From Spirochaetaceae bacterium (GTDB taxonomy: Bacteria; Spirochaetota; Spirochaetia; Treponematales; Treponemataceae), in assembly GCA_017416145.1 (NCBI GenBank), contig JAFQDD010000002.1, forward strand, positions 1 through 64,000: a DNA stretch of 64,000 nucleotides, given 5' to 3'. A model generated the notes under the pieces. The model had not been told where the DNA came from, searched no databases, and was given only the letters and a program-made list of their open reading frames with translations. Shown here one piece after another: positions 1,964 to 58,870 of this stretch. Position numbers and translations under genes: made by a program. Positions within the stretch are counted from its first letter, which is position 1, and the number at the start of each line of letters is the position of its first letter.

Positions 1964-2115
1964 TTTTTGGAGCAACCTACTTCAGTTTGGGGGCTATCCA
2001 GGATTCCGCGGGGATAACCCGCTCCAAACCTTCGGTTCAAGGGGATTTTTGCGTGGCAAAAATCCCCTTGTCCTTACTATCCCGGCTAGGCTGGTAAAAA
2101 AGAAAAGTTTTTTCA
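1964..2115. repeat. Dispersed repeat, copy A, with 15-bp perfect hairpin
   Basis: About 150 bp starting at the stop codon of the hexosaminidase. It is nearly identical to 15440-15590 and related at both ends to 25742-25868 (inverted) and 40877-41007. It begins with TTTTTTGGAGCAACC and ends with CCCGGCTAGGCTGG. A perfect stem occupies 2038-2070, with arms CAAGGGGATTTTTGC and GCAAAAATCCCCTTG around a GTG loop. It is far more GC-rich than the surroundings and contains no ORF. It could act as a 3' UTR or terminator element, or as a small mobile element. Confidence 0.85.
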
Positions 2116-4890: not shown

Positions 4891-6591
4891 TTACAAATAT
4901 CGTTTTACCATTCGCCTTAATTGACTTTTCCGAATGCCATTTGCGATTGCTTTTTGCTCGTATTTTTTAATTTCTTCTTGATTATCTAAAATTGTGTAAA
5001 TCAAATACAACAAAGAAATTCCTTCTTGATAATCGTTTTTTACTTCAAGAGTGTTTTTTGCCCATTGAATTGCTAAATCATAATCTCCATCTTTAAAATA
5101 ACCACAAGCAACATTGTAATATGGAACAGGATTTTTTGAATCAAAAGTTGCAGCTTTTTTACAAAGCTCTATTCCCCTTTCAAAGTTTCCTTGTTGAACG
5201 TAAATTGAGCCTAAATTTGAATAAATTCTGCCGTTTGCATTTCCTACAACAATTAAAGATTCATACAAATTGACTGCTTTTTCAGTTTCTCCAATCTGTT
5301 TGTAGTTCATCGCTAAAAACAAATTTAAAATATGTCTATCTTTTGTGATTCTGCATTCTTGGGATAATTTTTCTAAAATCTTAATTGATTTATCGTATTC
5401 TTCTACATTGTAATGATTTAATGCTTGTAAAAGTTTTTTTTCTGATTTTAGATCATTTTCAAAAGCTCCAGCTATTAAGTCCTGATTTTCATTTTTTACT
5501 CTTCTTAATGAACTTTTTCTTGCTTTCCTAAAACGAGTTCTAAACAATTTTGCAAGTCCAAAAAAGAATGCAGGAATTGCCAAGGCTGTAATTTCATTAC
5601 CTAACAAGAAATCTTCGCCTTCATTGTAATATGAATTGTAACAAAACAATGCAACTGAACCTAAGAAACCAATAATATAAATCGGAATAAAAAAGTTGTT
5701 GAACAGTTTCCAATCTTTTCGTTTTAATGAAATAATAAAAACAATCAAAAATACAAAGACAAAACTAAAAAAAACAACTGGACCAGCGTAATTTTCAAAA
5801 AAAGATTCTGACTTTGTGTAAATTGTGGTGGTTTCTATATCTCCAATTATCTGATAAACAAACCATTTTTCAGTGCCGTTTGATTTTTTAGAATAAATCT
5901 TTTTTCCCTCTGAATTGTATTCAAACCATTCTTCAGAAAAAGAAAAATCACTTTTATTTTTTTTGTGAATTAAATTTCCATTAGAATCGTAATCATAAAA
6001 TGTTTCTTGAGAAAGCCCACTTTTTTCGTAAATTAAATTGTTGCTTTCATCATATTCTTTAAAATATTCATTGGAATTTGAATCATAATAATATATTAGA
6101 TTGTTATTTTCGTCATATTTATAGTTTAATGCAAAACCATTACTGTATTCTTTTTTTATAAGATTATTATTTGAATCATAAGTATATGTAAATTCAAAAA
6201 CAACTGTATCATTAACTAATTCTTTTTTGGAAATTAAATTTTTATTTTCATCATATTTAAAAATATATTCCCCAGAAGCAGAACCTTTTTCATAAATTAA
6301 ATTATTATCTTCACTAAATTCTCTAAAAATCTCGTTGGAACCACCTAAAGAATCACTTTCAAATGCATAAATTTGATTCCCCATTGAATCATATTCATAT
6401 TTTGTGTTTTTAAATGGAGTTACTTCAGCAATCAGATTTCCCTGTAAATCATATTCTCTTACTTGCGTTTCTTTTGATACGAATTTAAAAAGAGTTTTTC
6501 CATTGTGCTTAAATATTTCAAAACTAGATTCTGCAAATAAATTACTACAAAGAAAAAATATAAATAAGGAAAGAATTGGCAACTTTTTCAC
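4891..6591 (-). CDS. Exported YD-repeat / transmembrane / TPR protein
   Basis: A 566-residue protein starting with GTG, preceded by ATGGAGA on the minus strand. It has a signal peptide at residues 1-20. Residues 40-245 contain about ten degenerate RHS-type YD repeats of the form YDxNxNLI, with a strikingly regular YDENNNLIY core. Two or three membrane segments follow (about 262-325), then a basic linker and four or more TPR-like repeats (about 385-550) that would be cytoplasmic. The likely topology is an outside YD-repeat stalk, membrane anchor and inside TPR scaffold. It lacks the RHS core and toxin tip, so it is not a classical Rhs/Tc toxin. Its upstream sequence is a decayed copy of another gene's leader. 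Confidence 0.65.
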   Translation of the reverse strand: MKKLPILSLFIFFLCSNLFAESSFEIFKHNGKTLFKFVSKETQVREYDLQGNLIAEVTPFKNTKYEYDSMGNQIYAFESDSLGGSNEIFREFSEDNNLIYEKGSASGEYIFKYDENKNLISKKELVNDTVVFEFTYTYDSNNNLIKKEYSNGFALNYKYDENNNLIYYYDSNSNEYFKEYDESNNLIYEKSGLSQETFYDYDSNGNLIHKKNKSDFSFSEEWFEYNSEGKKIYSKKSNGTEKWFVYQIIGDIETTTIYTKSESFFENYAGPVVFFSFVFVFLIVFIISLKRKDWKLFNNFFIPIYIIGFLGSVALFCYNSYYNEGEDFLLGNEITALAIPAFFFGLAKLFRTRFRKARKSSLRRVKNENQDLIAGAFENDLKSEKKLLQALNHYNVEEYDKSIKILEKLSQECRITKDRHILNLFLAMNYKQIGETEKAVNLYESLIVVGNANGRIYSNLGSIYVQQGNFERGIELCKKAATFDSKNPVPYYNVACGYFKDGDYDLAIQWAKNTLEVKNDYQEGISLLYLIYTILDNQEEIKKYEQKAIANGIRKSQLRRMVKRYL

Positions 6592-6744
6592 TTAACAATC
6601 TCCATACCACTTTTTTTTGACAAATTTCATCATATTGACATTTTGTTTTTTTTACAATACAAAAAAAATTTCTACTGTCAAACTTTCGACATTTTATATA
6701 CTTTGGTTTTTGCTTATTTTTGTTTCAATTTTGAATTGCATTTC
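6592..6744 (+). pseudogene. Deletion remnant of a DUF3592-like membrane-protein gene, copy 1
   Basis: Read on the plus strand, this carries the same leader as the intact gene at 13371-14225 (GACAAA, then CATATTGACATTTTG). It is joined directly to sequence matching that gene's last 100 bp or so (CTTTCGACATTTTATATACT onward). Everything between is missing. A second remnant with the same junction lies at 7973-8156, so the deletion happened before this segment was duplicated. No functional product is possible. Confidence 0.75.
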
Positions 6745-6845
6745 CATCAGCATCTGAACTAATTTATTATCTTTTGAATATCTTTCATACCAGATACATT
6801 GATTTTTTCTTTGTGAAAAATACGGTACTTCTAAGTTTCTAAAAC

Positions 6846-7972: not shown

Positions 7973-8156
7973 ACTTAACAATCTCCATACCACTTTTTTT
8001 TGACAAAATTCATCATATTGACATTTTGTTTTTTTTACAATACAAAAAAAAATTTCTACTGTCAAACTTTCGACATTTTATATACTTTGGTTTTTGCTTA
8101 TTTTTGTTTCAATTTTGAATTGCATTTTCAATACAGATTTATTACAAATATTATAA
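7973..8156 (+). pseudogene. Deletion remnant of a DUF3592-like membrane-protein gene, copy 2
   Basis: Almost identical to 6592-6744, including the fusion of the leader to the gene's 3' end at CTGTCAAACTTTCGAC. It extends further into the 3' end of the intact gene at 13371-14225, ending in an equivalent of its ATTATAA terminus. The leader still carries the TTGACA-type -35 box found upstream of the intact gene. It reads plus, between minus-strand genes. Confidence 0.75.
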
Positions 8157-13193: not shown

Positions 13194-13306
13194 GCTTATT
13201 CTCCTAATGGCATATATCTAAAATTTGAATATTTAAAACTAGTTTCAATATTCTTAAAACTATATTTTTCTCTAATTATCTGCTTTTTTTGACAAAATTC
13301 ATCATA

Positions 13307-13335
13307 TTGACATTTTGTTTTTTTTACAATACAAA
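13307..13335 (+). promoter_or_regulatory. Candidate promoter of the DUF3592-like gene
   Basis: TTGACA at 13307-13312 and TACAAA at 13330-13335, 17 bp apart. The same leader sequence survives in the two deletion remnants upstream of positions 6660 and 8040. Confidence 0.5.
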
Positions 13336-13370
13336 AAAATATATTCAAAAAAAAGGAAAGTTTCTAATTT

Positions 13371-14225
13371 ATGGTTGGAAGTTTTAATATTTTTTTTATT
13401 TTGATTGTAGGAATTTTTGTTTTATTACTTGTTTCTAAATTTCAAAAAAAATATTTAAAATTTATAAAAGATTACATTATTAAATTTTTAGGAAAACCTC
13501 AAAGTGGCGATTCTATAAAATGGTCAAAGAACTCTTTTTTTATAAAAGGATTTTTTGTTTCTTTGCTTTTGTATTTTATGTTTCGGTTCATTTTTCCAGT
13601 ATTTTTTATCGCAATTCTACTAAATATAATTATTGCTTCTGTTTTAATTAAAAAATCAAAAAAATATACAGAATACAAATCAGAAAAAATAAAATCCTAT
13701 ATTTTAGGGAATTTACTTGTTTCCTTGATTTTTGTTGCAAAACTTTTAATTATTTTATTTTTGGATTCAGAAGATGGATTAGCATTTTTATCTTCCAAAG
13801 ACGGTCAAACAATTTTTGGAAGCCTTTTTCTTATTGTAGCAATTTTTATTATTGGTCAGATTTATACAAAAAAATCTAGATTATTAAAAAATACCGCTGC
13901 CACAGCTTATACAGAAGGCAAAATTACAAGAATTACTAAAGTTCAATACAGTTTTGTAAAATTCATTACCTATGAATATGAGTTTGTTGTGAATGGAACT
14001 GTTTACAATGGAGTTTCTGGCGAACCCGAAAGAATTATGAAAAAAAGAGAAAGCCAACTTTCTGAAACTCAAAAGATATTTTATGTATATGAAAATCCTT
14101 CAATCTCAAAACTTGAAGCAGTAAAAGACAAAAAGCTTTCGACATTTTATATACTTTGGTTTTTGCTAATTTTTGTTTCAATTTTGAATTGCATTTTCAA
14201 TACAAATTTATTCCAAATATTATAA
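13371..14225 (+). CDS. DUF3592-like multi-pass membrane protein
   Basis: A 284-residue membrane protein with hydrophobic segments near residues 5-22, 58-100, 110-128 and 140-160, and another at the C-terminus. Between the last two is an exposed beta-rich region (TEGKITRITKVQYSF, then YEYEFVVNGTVYNG) that resembles DUF3592. Function is unknown. AGGAAAG lies about 12 bp before the ATG, a rather long spacing. Two internally deleted relics of the same gene lie at 6592-6744 and 7973-8156, so this is the surviving member of a small multicopy family. Confidence 0.65.
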   Translation: MVGSFNIFFILIVGIFVLLLVSKFQKKYLKFIKDYIIKFLGKPQSGDSIKWSKNSFFIKGFFVSLLLYFMFRFIFPVFFIAILLNIIIASVLIKKSKKYTEYKSEKIKSYILGNLLVSLIFVAKLLIILFLDSEDGLAFLSSKDGQTIFGSLFLIVAIFIIGQIYTKKSRLLKNTAATAYTEGKITRITKVQYSFVKFITYEYEFVVNGTVYNGVSGEPERIMKKRESQLSETQKIFYVYENPSISKLEAVKDKKLSTFYILWFLLIFVSILNCIFNTNLFQIL

Positions 14226-14305
14226 TAAATTACAAAACAATATTTTACCTTGACATTACATTGATTAAATGTCATACTGATAAAACTAAGCTAAGGAGTA
14301 TAAAA

Positions 14306-15439
14306 ATGAAAAAATCAGTTTGCTTAATCCTCTTTTTTCTATCACTTTCAATTTGTTTTGGTTTGAATCCTCGACCATTACATATTTCACAAATTTTTAA
14401 AGGTGTTGATGAAAAAATAGAACAACTTCAAGTTTTCAAATCTGGTTCTTACGAATACTACGGAGAATTCATCGAAGGTGAAGATATTCTTTTAAGCCAT
14501 ACTGTATTCGATTGGAAAAACTTAAAAACTTACACAATCGAATATATATCAGGTGGTACAGAGATAAAAGAATATAGAGAAAGAACTTTCAATAAAGACT
14601 TATTAATTGTACAAGATATTTGGGTAGATTATTCTGGTGAACTAATTTTAGACTATGAATATGCCTCTGATTATTCTAGTTTTAAATGTTATGCAACAGA
14701 AGATGGTGAGAAATATTTGTACGACGAATATTACATCAAAAAAACAGCTACTGGATATAACGGTTTTTATCGTGACTATTATTCAGATGGCGATATTTAT
14801 GCCGCCTCAAAATATTCAGACCCACTACCATATTTTTATGATAGATCAAAAAAAGAAGCTGTAAATAAAATTTATTGTATGAAATACGGTATAGAATCAG
14901 TTACCGAAATCGAATATTACGATAGCAATTCAATTGACACAATATACGATTACATCTTTTCAGAAAAATCCTATGTGATGATAGATAATGACTATGACGA
15001 AAAATACGAATATTTTTTCGATGATGATTACAACTTAATAAGAGAAGTTGAATATTACGCTATTGATGATCCAGATATTTATTATGATACACGTTACATA
15101 CTCGAAAAAGATTCAAAAGGCAGAAAGATTTCTCAAAAACTCTATGAAGATGTTTCAGAAACATACAATTTCAGTCCAGACGCTTATTCCCCAGACGAAA
15201 CATTGATAATCAAATATCCAAAAACTGGGTTAAAATCCTTAGAACGTCCTACAGAATTCTACAATTATTATGGTGACGAAGAAGGATATTACTGCGAATA
15301 TTGTGACGAATATCACTACTACGATGACTATTATTACGACGACGAAGACTATTATTACGACGAAGAAGGATATTACTGCGAAGACTGTGATGAATATCAC
15401 TACTCCGAAGACGAATGTTACGAATCTAAAGAAATATAA
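14306..15439 (+). CDS. Exported protein with repetitive Tyr/Asp/Glu-rich Cys tail
   Basis: A 377-residue exported protein. AAGGAG lies just before the ATG and residues 1-19 form a signal peptide. The middle part contains loosely YD-like beta strands (DYNLIREVEYY, DSKGRKISQKLYED). The last 55 residues are extraordinary: two repeats starting DEEGYYCE, each with CxxCxEYHY, separated by runs of Tyr and Asp. Each repeat offers two Cys, one His and several acidic side chains, which suggests metal binding, but that is inference. I do not recognise a family. Repeat copy B starts directly at its stop codon. Confidence 0.65.
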   Translation: MKKSVCLILFFLSLSICFGLNPRPLHISQIFKGVDEKIEQLQVFKSGSYEYYGEFIEGEDILLSHTVFDWKNLKTYTIEYISGGTEIKEYRERTFNKDLLIVQDIWVDYSGELILDYEYASDYSSFKCYATEDGEKYLYDEYYIKKTATGYNGFYRDYYSDGDIYAASKYSDPLPYFYDRSKKEAVNKIYCMKYGIESVTEIEYYDSNSIDTIYDYIFSEKSYVMIDNDYDEKYEYFFDDDYNLIREVEYYAIDDPDIYYDTRYILEKDSKGRKISQKLYEDVSETYNFSPDAYSPDETLIIKYPKTGLKSLERPTEFYNYYGDEEGYYCEYCDEYHYYDDYYYDDEDYYYDEEGYYCEDCDEYHYSEDECYESKEI

Positions 15440-15590
15440 TTTTTTGGAGCAACCTACTTCAGTTTGGGGGCTATCCAGGATTCCGCGGGATAACCCGCTC
15501 CAAACCTTCGGTTCAAGGGGATTTTTGCGTGGCAAAAATCCCCTTGTCCTTACTATCCCGGCTAGGTTGGTAAAAAAGAAAAGTTTTTTC
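15440..15590. repeat. Dispersed repeat, copy B, with 15-bp perfect hairpin
   Basis: Nearly identical to copy A at 1964-2115, differing by one G in the CGCGGG run and a C/T in GGCTAGG. Like copy A it starts at the stop codon of a plus-strand gene. The perfect hairpin lies at 15514-15546. Confidence 0.85.
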
Positions 15591-15620
15591 AGTTTCCTTT
15601 GTAAAAAGCTAAAAGACAAA

Positions 15621-24900: not shown

Positions 24901-25725
24901 ATGGAAAAACGCGAACAAATCAACAATGAAAATACTTTTGTGCCAAAAACGAACTTTGTTTACCCAGAAGAACCCAACACTCCCTTTTTGCAGCCAAAAA
25001 TTAAGCATGAAATAAAAATTGATTCAGATTACCCTTTTCTTTCAAAAAAATTAAAAGATAGACTTTGGAACGGTTTTGTATATTTTGTAATTTTTACATT
25101 AGTGTTTCCTTTGCAAAAAATTCGATATGGTCTGAAAATCAAAGGTCGAAAAAACTTTACTAAAAATAGAAAACATTTCAAAAACGGCGGAATGACTGTA
25201 AGTAATCACGTTTATCGCTGGGATTTTTTGGCTTGTTTACAGGCTGTTAAATTCAGAAGAATGTGGTTTCCTGCTCGAGCGTTACAATTAAGTGGAAGTG
25301 ATGCAAATCTTATCAAAGGTGCTGGTGGAATCCCAATTCCAGATTCAATAGCTGCAATGAGAGGATTTAACGAGGCTTTTGACACTTTACACGCAAAAAA
25401 GAAATGGATTCACGTTTTTCCAGAAGGTTTCCGCTGGGATTTTTACCAACCTATTCGCCCATTTTTAAAAGGTGCTTTTACAATGGCTGTGAAATACAAT
25501 ATTCCTGTATTACCAATTGCAATTTCATACAGAGAACCAACTGGCATTTACAAATTGTTAAAGGTAAAACATCCTCTTATCACAGTTTCAGTTGGAACAC
25601 CGATTTTTCCATCAGAAGAGCTTTCTAAAAAGGAAAACATCTTTAAACTTCGGGAAGAAGCTCATAAACAAATTGTGGAAATGGCTGGAATCAAGCAAAA
25701 TATGTGGCCCTTTGACGCTGATTAA
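24901..25725 (+). CDS. 1-acyl-glycerol-3-phosphate acyltransferase family protein
   Basis: A 274-residue PlsC-type acyltransferase. The catalytic HX4D motif is NHVYRWD (His103, Asp108) and the substrate motif is FPEG near residue 174. The IP(I/V)LPIAISYREP segment follows. The enzyme would acylate lysophosphatidate or a related lipid at the inner membrane. About 50 polar residues precede the first hydrophobic helix. AAGGAAAAAAG precedes the ATG. It shares a transcript with the EAL protein, which suggests linked membrane and signalling functions only by position. Confidence 0.85.
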   Translation: MEKREQINNENTFVPKTNFVYPEEPNTPFLQPKIKHEIKIDSDYPFLSKKLKDRLWNGFVYFVIFTLVFPLQKIRYGLKIKGRKNFTKNRKHFKNGGMTVSNHVYRWDFLACLQAVKFRRMWFPARALQLSGSDANLIKGAGGIPIPDSIAAMRGFNEAFDTLHAKKKWIHVFPEGFRWDFYQPIRPFLKGAFTMAVKYNIPVLPIAISYREPTGIYKLLKVKHPLITVSVGTPIFPSEELSKKENIFKLREEAHKQIVEMAGIKQNMWPFDAD

Positions 25726-25741
25726 GGATTTTGAAATCGAG

Positions 25742-25868
25742 GATAAGGCTAGCCCAGACATTAGGGGCGTTAGTTCTAGGTTGTGAAGTGAAACGGAGCA
25801 ACCTAGAATGGAGGCGTAGGCCGGAACCCCGTTTGGCTGGAACAAAGGGGATTTTGGTTGCTCCATAT
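25742..25868. repeat. Dispersed repeat, copy C (inverted orientation)
   Basis: Read on the minus strand it begins GGAGCAACC, contains TTCCAGCCAAACGGGGTTCC and ends CCCCTAATGTCTGGGCTAG. Those three blocks are shared with copy D at 40877-41007. The outer ends also match copies A and B. An internal second copy of GGTTGCTCC and AACCTAGAA arms can form its own hairpin. It lies between convergent genes. Confidence 0.75.
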
Positions 25869-25869
25869 T

Positions 25870-26559
25870 TTAGGATTCTTGGACTATTTTTGAAAAATCT
25901 TCAAATGAGTACAAAGGATGATTTGGTTTATAATCTGGTTTTGTTTTATGGGTTTTGATTTGAACAAACTTCATACCAGAGTCAAAAGCTCCTTTTCCGT
26001 CCGTATCTGCCCTATCTCCTACCACAAGACAATTTTCTGGAGAAACCCCTATTTTTTCTGTCAGTTTAAGGAAGCCTTTTTTTGCAGGTTTCAAACAAGC
26101 AAAATCTTCACTGGCAAAAAATCCATCAAAATATGATAATTCTTCCTCTGTAAATTTAACAGCCTTTAGTCGTTCTTTTAGCATCCTGTAATCAGAATAA
26201 ACAACTAGTTTTATATTTTTTGATTTTATGCATTTTATCAAATCCAATAATCCATCACGTTTTTTGTATTTTTTTGATAAAACCAAAATCATTTTTTTCA
26301 TATATAAATTGTTATACCAATTTTTTGCTACATCTGGAGTTTTAAATTTTCCAAAGCTTTTTAGCACAGAAAAAAACTCTTTTTCGTATTCTTCAATAGA
26401 GGGAAAATCTCTACCTTTTAGGGATTTTCTAGTTTTTTGCACTGCACTAATTTTTAGCATATTTGGAATGGAAGATAAACAAAGGTTTTTTGGCAAACCT
26501 TTAAAATCGTATAGTGTTCCGTCAAAGTCAAAGATTATTGCTTTTATATTGTCTAACAT
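25870..26559 (-). CDS. HAD-family hydrolase
   Basis: A 229-residue haloacid-dehalogenase-type phosphatase. Motif I is FDFDGTLYD near residue 10, motif II is VVYSDY near 135 (Ser replaced within a YSD context), and motif IV is VVGDRADTDGKGA near 190. A helical cap region lies between. The substrate cannot be predicted; related small HAD proteins act on phosphosugars, phosphoglycolate or nucleotides. It is a single gene whose 3' end abuts repeat copy C. Confidence 0.85.
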   Translation of the reverse strand: MLDNIKAIIFDFDGTLYDFKGLPKNLCLSSIPNMLKISAVQKTRKSLKGRDFPSIEEYEKEFFSVLKSFGKFKTPDVAKNWYNNLYMKKMILVLSKKYKKRDGLLDLIKCIKSKNIKLVVYSDYRMLKERLKAVKFTEEELSYFDGFFASEDFACLKPAKKGFLKLTEKIGVSPENCLVVGDRADTDGKGAFDSGMKFVQIKTHKTKPDYKPNHPLYSFEDFSKIVQES

Positions 26560-39456: not shown

Positions 39457-39527
39457 GAGTAAATAATTAGAAATATAAGATTTTTTTATAAATTAAGAAA
39501 ATAAAAAGAAATTAAACGGAATACTCA

Positions 39528-39812
39528 CCAGAACCATTCCCGAGCCATCAGTCTCATTCACGTAAGCTAAACACGGCACGCTCCCCAGAACCATTCCCGC
39601 CCCATCAAGCCCAATCACGTAAGCCACCCACGGAATGCTCCCCAGAGCCATTCCTGAGCCTTCAAGCCCAATCACGCAAGCCACCCACGGAATGCTCCCC
39701 AGAGCCATTCCCGAGCCATCAGCCTCATTCACGCAAGCCACCCACGGAATGCTCGCCAGAGCCATTCCCGAGCCTTCAAGCCCAATCACGCAAGCCACCC
39801 ACGGCACACTGG
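39528..39812. repeat. GC-rich tandem repeat, five units of exactly 57 bp
   Basis: Copies start at 39528, 39585, 39642, 39699 and 39756. A partial unit precedes them. One unit has 35 G/C of 57, far above the surrounding DNA. Units come in two alternating sub-types (with AGCCTCATTCACG or AAGCCCAATCACG). Since 57 is divisible by 3, several frames stay open on both strands, e.g. SIPWVACV-type 19-residue repeats on the minus strand. No ribosome-binding site or start supports a real gene. An unusual A/C-rich flank follows to about 39885. Confidence 0.9.
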
Positions 39813-40015: not shown

Positions 40016-40768
40016 TTAATATGTTTTACAAATAGCCTCAAAAGATTCAACTTTCAATGCTGCTCCACCAATCAAACCACCGTCAATATCAGGACAGTTT
40101 AGAAGGTCTTGAGCATTTTCAGGTTTCATTGATCCACCGTATTGGATAATTACGCCATCAGCAACTTCTTTTGAATAAAGTTTTGCAATATGATCACGAC
40201 AGAACTTGTGAATAGCTTGAGCATCTTCTGGAGTTGCAGTTTTTCCAGTACCAATAGCCCAAACAGGTTCATAAGCAATAGTTACGTTTTTCATTTGTTC
40301 AGCAGTTACACCAGAAAGACCAGCAGAAAGTTGGAAAGCACAAACTTTTTCAGCATTTCCAGCTTCACGGTCAGAAAGAAGTTCACCAATACAAAGAACA
40401 ACTTCCATACCTTGTTCTAGAGAACGAAGAACTTTTTTGTTAATAAGTTCATCAGATTCACCAATTTCGTGACGGCGTTCTGAGTGACCTAGGATAACAA
40501 CATTACATCCAATGTCTTTTAGCATTTCGCAAGAAACTTCACCAGTGTGAGCACCGTTTCCAGTTGCAGCAACGTCTTGAGCACCTAAAAGGATATTAGA
40601 ACCTTTTACAACTTGAGCAACTGCATCAAGATAAACATAAGGAACACCAATCATGTACTTGTTCTTACCATCTTTTAGAGCTTCAACAAGCCCCTTTGCA
40701 AGATCCAAAGCCTCAGCCTTGTTTTTGTTCATTTTCCAGTTTCCAGCAATGTAATACTGTCTAGCCAT
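40016..40768 (-). CDS. tpiA: Triosephosphate isomerase
   Basis: A 250-residue glycolytic enzyme interconverting dihydroxyacetone phosphate and glyceraldehyde-3-phosphate. Landmarks are AGNWKMNK near residue 7, the catalytic His in LGHSERR near 95, the catalytic Glu in IAYEPVWAIGTGKTA near 165 and QYGGSMKPEN near 210. The ATG at 40768 is chosen because AGGAG lies 7 bp before it. Length is standard. It is a single gene followed by the hairpin and tandem-repeat region. Confidence 0.95.
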   Translation of the reverse strand: MARQYYIAGNWKMNKNKAEALDLAKGLVEALKDGKNKYMIGVPYVYLDAVAQVVKGSNILLGAQDVAATGNGAHTGEVSCEMLKDIGCNVVILGHSERRHEIGESDELINKKVLRSLEQGMEVVLCIGELLSDREAGNAEKVCAFQLSAGLSGVTAEQMKNVTIAYEPVWAIGTGKTATPEDAQAIHKFCRDHIAKLYSKEVADGVIIQYGGSMKPENAQDLLNCPDIDGGLIGGAALKVESFEAICKTY

Positions 40769-40876
40769 TTTCATTCTCCTATTGCGTAAGCGTGGCAAAA
40801 ATACCACAGATTTTGTATAATTCTATAAAATTATACTGATTTAATTGTTATATTTCAAGTCTGAATTCACAAATTA

Positions 40877-41007
40877 TTTTGGAGCAACCTTTATTCCCTA
40901 TGATTCCAGCCAAACGGGGTTCCCTAACGGTCAGCCTCCTCAAATGTGGCTACGCCCCATTCTCCGGTGGCTTGCTTCGCAACCCCTAATGTCTGGGCTA
41001 GGCTCAT
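40877..41007. repeat. Dispersed repeat, copy D
   Basis: Starts TTTTGGAGCAACC, shares TTCCAGCCAAACGGGGTTCC and AACCCCTAATGTCTGGGCTAG with copy C, and ends GGCTAGGCT like copies A and B. It lies between the divergent tpiA and HD-phosphohydrolase genes, not at a 3' end. Confidence 0.75.
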
Positions 41008-58495: not shown

Positions 58496-58508
58496 ACTAA
58501 ACATCAGG

Positions 58509-58581
58509 GGCGATTAGCTCAGCTGGGAGAGCACCTGGTTTACACCCAGGTTGTCGGGGGTTCGATCCCCTCATCGCCCAA
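58509..58581 (+). tRNA. tRNA-Val (anticodon TAC)
   Basis: A 73-base cloverleaf. The acceptor stem GGGCGAT pairs with ATCGCCC, the D-loop has AGCTCAGCTGGGAGAGC, the anticodon arm is CCTGG-TTTACAC-CCAGG, and the T arm is GGGGG-TTCGATC-CCCTC. The discriminator base is A and CCA is not encoded. It is the only tRNA in the window. Confidence 0.97.
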
Positions 58582-58672
58582 AGCGTCTATAGGAAACTGT
58601 AGACGCTTTTTTTTGTTTTAAATCAATTATCAGCAAATAAATACCGAGGGAATCGAAACGGAATGTCCGCCG
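58564..58672 (+). repeat. 109-bp direct repeat, first copy, including the tRNA-Val 3' end
   Basis: Runs from the T-loop of tRNA-Val through its terminator to GTCCGCCG. It is repeated exactly 198 bp downstream at 58762-58870. The 89 bp between the copies is unlike the surroundings in base content. Confidence 0.9.
58581..58614 (+). terminator. tRNA-Val terminator
   Basis: AAGCGTCTA pairs with TAGACGCTT and is followed by a T-run. A second exact copy lies within the downstream direct repeat. Confidence 0.8.
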
Positions 58673-58761
58673 AGCAAGAGCGAGGAAAAGTGCACAGGAT
58701 GTGCACGGCAGGACATGTAGGTGGGCTGGAAGGAACAAACAGGACGTTTGTGACTGAAAGC

Positions 58762-58870
58762 CGATCCCCTCATCGCCCAAAGCGTCTATAGGAAACTGTA
58801 GACGCTTTTTTTGTTTTAAATCAATTATCAGCAAATAAATACCGAGGGAATCGAAACGGAATGTCCGCCG
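58762..58870 (+). repeat. 109-bp direct repeat, second copy (partial tRNA-Val)
   Basis: Carries the last 18 bases of tRNA-Val, its terminator and the following sequence, identical to the first copy. It cannot make a tRNA. It may mark a tandem duplication or an old integration event at the tRNA 3' end. Confidence 0.9.

Follow-up and report, generated by a model that had tools for sequence, protein, structure and literature searches.

The window, a stretch of 64,000 nucleotides from a Treponemataceae species whose genome spans 2.9 Mb in 35 contigs, contains four copies of a short repeat, with the ends that a preliminary description of this DNA had given for them. A search of the whole window with the family covariance model, run without filters, returned exactly these four copies (E 5e-22 to 6e-16), while the next-best match lay at E 0.6. 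The copies, as delimited by this search, and the genes next to copies 3 and 4 are as follows.

1968-2093, + strand: element copy 1
15445-15569, + strand: element copy 2, 99% identical to copy 1
24901-25725, + strand: acyltransferase gene, convergent with the HAD hydrolase gene
25745-25865, - strand: element copy 3, 121 nt
25870-26559, - strand: HAD hydrolase gene
40016-40807, - strand: triosephosphate isomerase gene (tpi), with copy 4 upstream of it
40880-41005, + strand: element copy 4

Copies 1 and 2 each start immediately 3' of the TAA stop codon of the upstream gene (open reading frames 220-1962 and 14156-15439), as had been claimed for two of the copies, and are indeed nearly identical. 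Their identity continues past the element on both flanks, over about 1960-2119 and 15437-15595 respectively, and because it reaches 99% the duplication must, on this comparison, be recent. The copies have common ends and differing centres; the proposal that the centre is exchangeable stands insofar as the centres differ, but what differs is the variable hairpin part within one conserved fold. Genetic code 25 was considered for the window and is not needed.

The window also holds repeats of other kinds. Three near-identical non-coding stretches of ~80-106 nt (TTTTTTTGACAAAATTCATCATATTGACATTTTG...), noted at 6590-6746, 7973-8130, 13262-13343 and 14094-14199, look from their letters like repeated upstream or promoter regions. 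A direct duplication with a ~200-nt period (65-nt copies 100% identical, 59-nt copies 95%) occupies 58563-58870, just after the tRNA gene at 58508-58580, and tandem 57-bp repeats at 39516-39804, which have relatives at many other sites in the genome, probably represent a repeat-protein family.

The element is ~65-200 nt long. Read on the strand on which it was found, its core runs through P1, a C.T mismatch, 2 bp, a 3x3 internal loop, P2, TTCC, hairpin 1, TCCATT, hairpin 2 (the most variable part of the core) and hairpin 3, and then back. P1 is formed by CCAG/CTGG, CCGG/CCGG, CCTG/CAGG, GGG/CCC and other combinations, and P2 is mostly GGGG/CCCC. In copy 4 the parts are placed as follows.

40883-40885, + strand: 5' side of the outer stem P0 (AGC), paired with 40997-40999 (GCT) and backed by covariation over the copies
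40906-40909, + strand: 5' side of P1 (CCAG), paired with 40993-40996 (CTGG)
40910 and 40992, + strand: the conserved C.T mismatch, with C at 40910
40911-40912, + strand: 2-bp step (CA), paired with 40990-40991 (TG)
40913-40915 and 40987-40989, + strand: 3x3 internal loop between the 2 bp and P2
40916-40919, + strand: 5' side of P2 (GGGG), paired with 40983-40986 (CCCC)
40972-40982, + strand: hairpin 3, TTGC-TTC-GCAA, which on the bottom strand has a GAA (GNA-type) loop
40997-41003, + strand: 3' end GCTAGGC, including the 3' side of P0

P0, a short stem formed by the ends of the element, differs among subfamilies and covaries: it is AGC/GCT in the window's type and ACG/CGT, ACC/GGT, GCGTT/AACGC, GCGAC/GTCGC or GCAGT/ACTGC in others. 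A complementary match of five letters between the two ends was found in 72 of 102 elements with ends other than the window's type, whereas shuffling the ends gave 24 of 102 on average and never more than 33.

The core behaves as a paired structure under constraint, with double changes in 12 of 14 pairs, 97% of cells paired, and covariation far above both shuffles and slid controls. In 195 distinct cores P1 and P2 comprise 1790 Watson-Crick pairs, 4 G.T, 6 A.C (an A.C on the finding strand being a G.U on the opposite one) and 34 other pairs, most of the last at the weak outermost pair. The C.T mismatch is kept in 184 of these cores and the hairpin-3 loop reads C-TNC-G in 172 (TTC 144, TGC 10, TAC 9, TCC 9), which corresponds to GNA on the bottom strand; unusually stable DNA mini-hairpins, for example GCGAAGC, are known to form where such a loop is closed by G-C pairs (PMC4686876). 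Calculated with DNA energies, the fold of the bottom strand is the more stable of the two in 146 of 150 copies, and RNA energies likewise favour the bottom strand, so that the comparison supports the strand and does not decide the molecule. When the bottom strand is folded as DNA at minimum energy, the P1-mismatch-2 bp-loop pattern appears in copy 4 and much of it in copies 1 and 2; copy 4 taken alone folds no better than its shuffles. The view of the repeat as hairpin-forming, modular and non-coding is upheld.

Conserved unpaired segments and covariation would also be typical of a structured RNA, either small or cis-regulatory, that had been multiplied by duplication or hitch-hiking. An RNA helix with such turnover should, we infer, pass through many wobble intermediates, yet nearly no G.U or A.C pairs occur at the variable positions. 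The scarcity of wobble pairs despite compensatory changes, together with the TNC (GNA) loops of hairpin 3, points to selection acting on folded single-stranded DNA and not on RNA. An intrinsic terminator was considered and rejected: the T-run precedes the hairpins and the A-rich stretch follows them, which is the wrong order, and no terminator was called at copy 1.

The repeat is dispersed, as first described, with copies spread over the genome. The count of four applies to the window but not to the genome, which has from ten to 49 copies depending on the method: a genome-wide search for both end motifs at the right spacing gave ten exact end-to-end matches and no control match, the first covariance model gave 27 copies, and a broader model gave 49 at E <= 0.01, diverged copies included. 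Of 195 genomes sampled across the window's family, 127 carried relatives, and many of these carriers had at least 17 matches each. The core string is almost confined to Treponema records, namely rumen metagenome assemblies, T. bryantii, T. saccharophilum, T. socranskii, T. parvum and strain JC4, and deeper scoring gave 20 matches each in the T. socranskii and JC4 genomes, nine in T. parvum, three in T. bryantii and four in one Bacteroidetes assembly. Phage records gave no element match and the core string was absent from viral contigs; phage, viral and plasmid reservoirs were rejected, the sole match being one degenerate core (E 7e-8) on a plasmid of the betaproteobacterium Nitrosospira (L380:1501-1561). 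Among the papers searched, none described a Treponema repeat of this kind.

The positions of the copies are not common to relatives. At the junction occupied by copy 3, the acyltransferase and HAD hydrolase genes overlap or lie no more than about 20 bp apart in four congeneric species, while in the window they are separated by a gap of 144 nt that contains the element. No copy was found in the tpi regions of six congeners. Further empty sites were seen in L246 and L178: where L177 has a copy, L246 runs on through a T-tract at the corresponding site, and a copy that follows a stop codon in L234 is missing from T. bryantii. No target-site duplication is visible at the L177/L246 T-tract site, the sites being too diverged for base precision. 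These comparisons involve diverged species, in which ends and target are not base-exact and loss is possible at each site. The expectation of mobility was thus borne out in the positions, which differ between species, but not in target-site duplications, none of which was seen at these diverged sites, and the non-autonomous mobile element that had been suggested is the best reading of the repeat. Clean empty sites were also sought between L227 and G194, where the intergenic DNA proved too rearranged. A different repeat of ~155 nt (L227:1662-1820) has relatives at several sites in G194, and comparison of two close Treponema genomes shows it inverted or replaced. The elements themselves tend to sit near the 3' ends of genes, on either side, and their orientation relative to the genes is not consistent, which argues against a structured RNA.

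The element resembles two families that Rfam lists as sRNA genes. With permissive thresholds, the bottom strand of the element aligns from end to end with the Flavo-1 RNA (RF01705). The helices of both follow one pattern (3 bp, mismatch, 2 bp, 3-nt loop, second stem), and the bottom strand has both the consensus secondary structure and the conserved letters (UAGCC..GAUUG..AAAGC) of the Rfam family. Such matches occur in 22 of 46 Treponemataceae genomes, the best at 41.4 bits, and none of the 46 genomes searched passes the Rfam gathering cut-off of 42 bits; the window's own genome has one match, of 31.8 bits, to a copy on C34 (84880-84969). The Treponema copies differ from Flavo-1 in their longer arms, in their variable hairpins and in the presence of several end types. 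The second family, the TD-2 RNA (RF03162), resembles the top-strand 5' arm of one Treponema subfamily (L184, L185, L208), although the match is sub-threshold (36.5 versus a cut-off of 48.7 bits) and covers the arm and not the core, and the window's subfamily is without this arm. Because all scores lie below the curated cut-off, the element is, by comparison of sequence and predicted fold, a close relative of Flavo-1 and not a formal member; the TD-2 scores likewise all fall below their curated cut-off. Two rumen Treponema records (L231:3422-3543 and L156:949-1065) carry matches to a further family, drum RNA (RF02958), above its cut-off.

These partial, sub-cut-off matches to families filed as sRNAs, Flavo-1 with function unknown, lend some weight to a structured RNA. 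In L184, however, and in L185 for the arm, a TD-2-like arm is joined directly to a Flavo-1-like core in a composite repeat that has one match on each strand, and a DNA element would fit such a fusion of two opposite-strand "RNAs" better than two RNA genes. The original description of Flavo-1 presented it as a probable RNA from Bacteroidetes (PMC2864571). It has been listed as an sRNA family since 2010 and is counted with the most abundant sRNA families of bacteria for which no function is known (PMC9029176). In the transcriptome of Flavobacterium psychrophilum its matches lie indistinctly sense or antisense to transcribed regions, and many lie outside them (PMC9723704), which speaks against Flavo-1 as a transcribed small RNA. 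While Flavo-1 is filed as RNA, the Treponema evidence favours DNA, and we regard a structured RNA as an unlikely explanation of the repeat.

The preliminary description had the repeat moved by an enzyme elsewhere and pointed to a REP-type tyrosine or other transposase. The likeness to REP and BIME sequences is considerable: the element is short, intergenic, non-autonomous and abundant, its imperfect hairpins keep a conserved mismatch (49 copies; 184 of 195 cores), it folds as a single strand, and no target duplication is visible. Several relatives, one of the same genus, have Y1 genes, some of them RAYT-sized, so that a true REP or IS200-IS605-type family whose Y1 (HUH) transposase or RAYT has been lost from the genome, or went undetected, deserves consideration. 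Against it, a search of the window's genome for Y1_Tnp (PF01797) gave no match, Y1 genes occur only sporadically across the family and are absent from several high-copy genomes, and no element lies within the ~1.5-kb flanks of the RAYT-sized Y1 genes of relatives. The element also differs from REPs in being a multi-hairpin core and not one palindrome. In the strict REP/RAYT sense the earlier attribution is not upheld, and we find a family of this type improbable; the element is REP-like by analogy and not by membership. Nor does it have the terminal inverted repeats of a MITE of a DDE transposon, its ends pairing over only ~3-5 bp.

The folded bottom strand, with its two stems, unpaired spacer and variable terminal structure, also recalls the attC sites of integrons, and a copy on C7 adjoins a tyrosine recombinase gene, as might be seen if the repeats were attC-like sites of an integron-like or Xer-type recombinase. 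That gene, however, adjoins ftsZ and looks like a chromosomal Xer; the adjacency looks coincidental and was rejected as a link. The element ends read GGAGCAACC and GGGCTAGGCT, without the RYYYAAC and GTTRRRY boxes of attC, and form no cassette arrays, and no integron integrase (TIGR02249) over the cut-off was found in the genome, the best match reaching 74.9 bits per piece against a cut-off of 265 bits. Among the integrase-like tyrosine recombinases of the genome, all far under that cut-off, two are, by their neighbour genes, chromosomal Xer-type genes, and the third is by similarity Xer-like. This combination makes attC-like sites a very unlikely reading. At the contig end of C19 (1-8000, L054), an Xer-like tyrosine recombinase is followed by small genes (a methyltransferase, a tautomerase and acetyltransferases), partly in two similar copies and cassette-like in arrangement; the first 8 kb of C19 contain no element copy and no recognisable attC-like repeat, and this recombinase was for that reason rejected as the mover. 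More generally, among the genes beside the element copies no gene family travels with the element, and genes that recur as neighbours mostly represent one locus shared by related genomes. No enzyme that moves the element was found, and it is probably moved by one other than those considered here.

Taken together, we consider it likely that the copies belong to a non-autonomous single-stranded-DNA hairpin insertion element of the Treponemataceae that is moved in trans. The bottom strand, when single-stranded, would adopt the conserved multi-hairpin form of P0, P1, the C.T mismatch, 2 bp, the 3x3 loop, P2 and the GNA-loop hairpins. This strand may be exposed during replication or repair, and its folded form would be what a trans-acting enzyme recognises and inserts, frequently at T-rich positions close to the ends of genes, with no visible target duplication. 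The C.T mismatch and the loops would then be the binding marks of the enzyme, and the variable hairpins tolerated filler.

What is new here is that Flavo-1-type motifs look like DNA elements. We suggest far more tentatively that they might be mobile single-stranded-DNA hairpin elements across phyla, with a mobilising enzyme of their own, distinct from both Y1/RAYT transposases and integron integrases. If Flavo-1 is a DNA element, its Rfam entry and the annotations that depend on it need re-reading, and the search for a single-stranded-DNA-handling enzyme shared by spirochaetes and Bacteroidota becomes concrete. For the treponemes of the gut and the mouth, the element accounts for a large share of the intergenic repeats that lack annotation.
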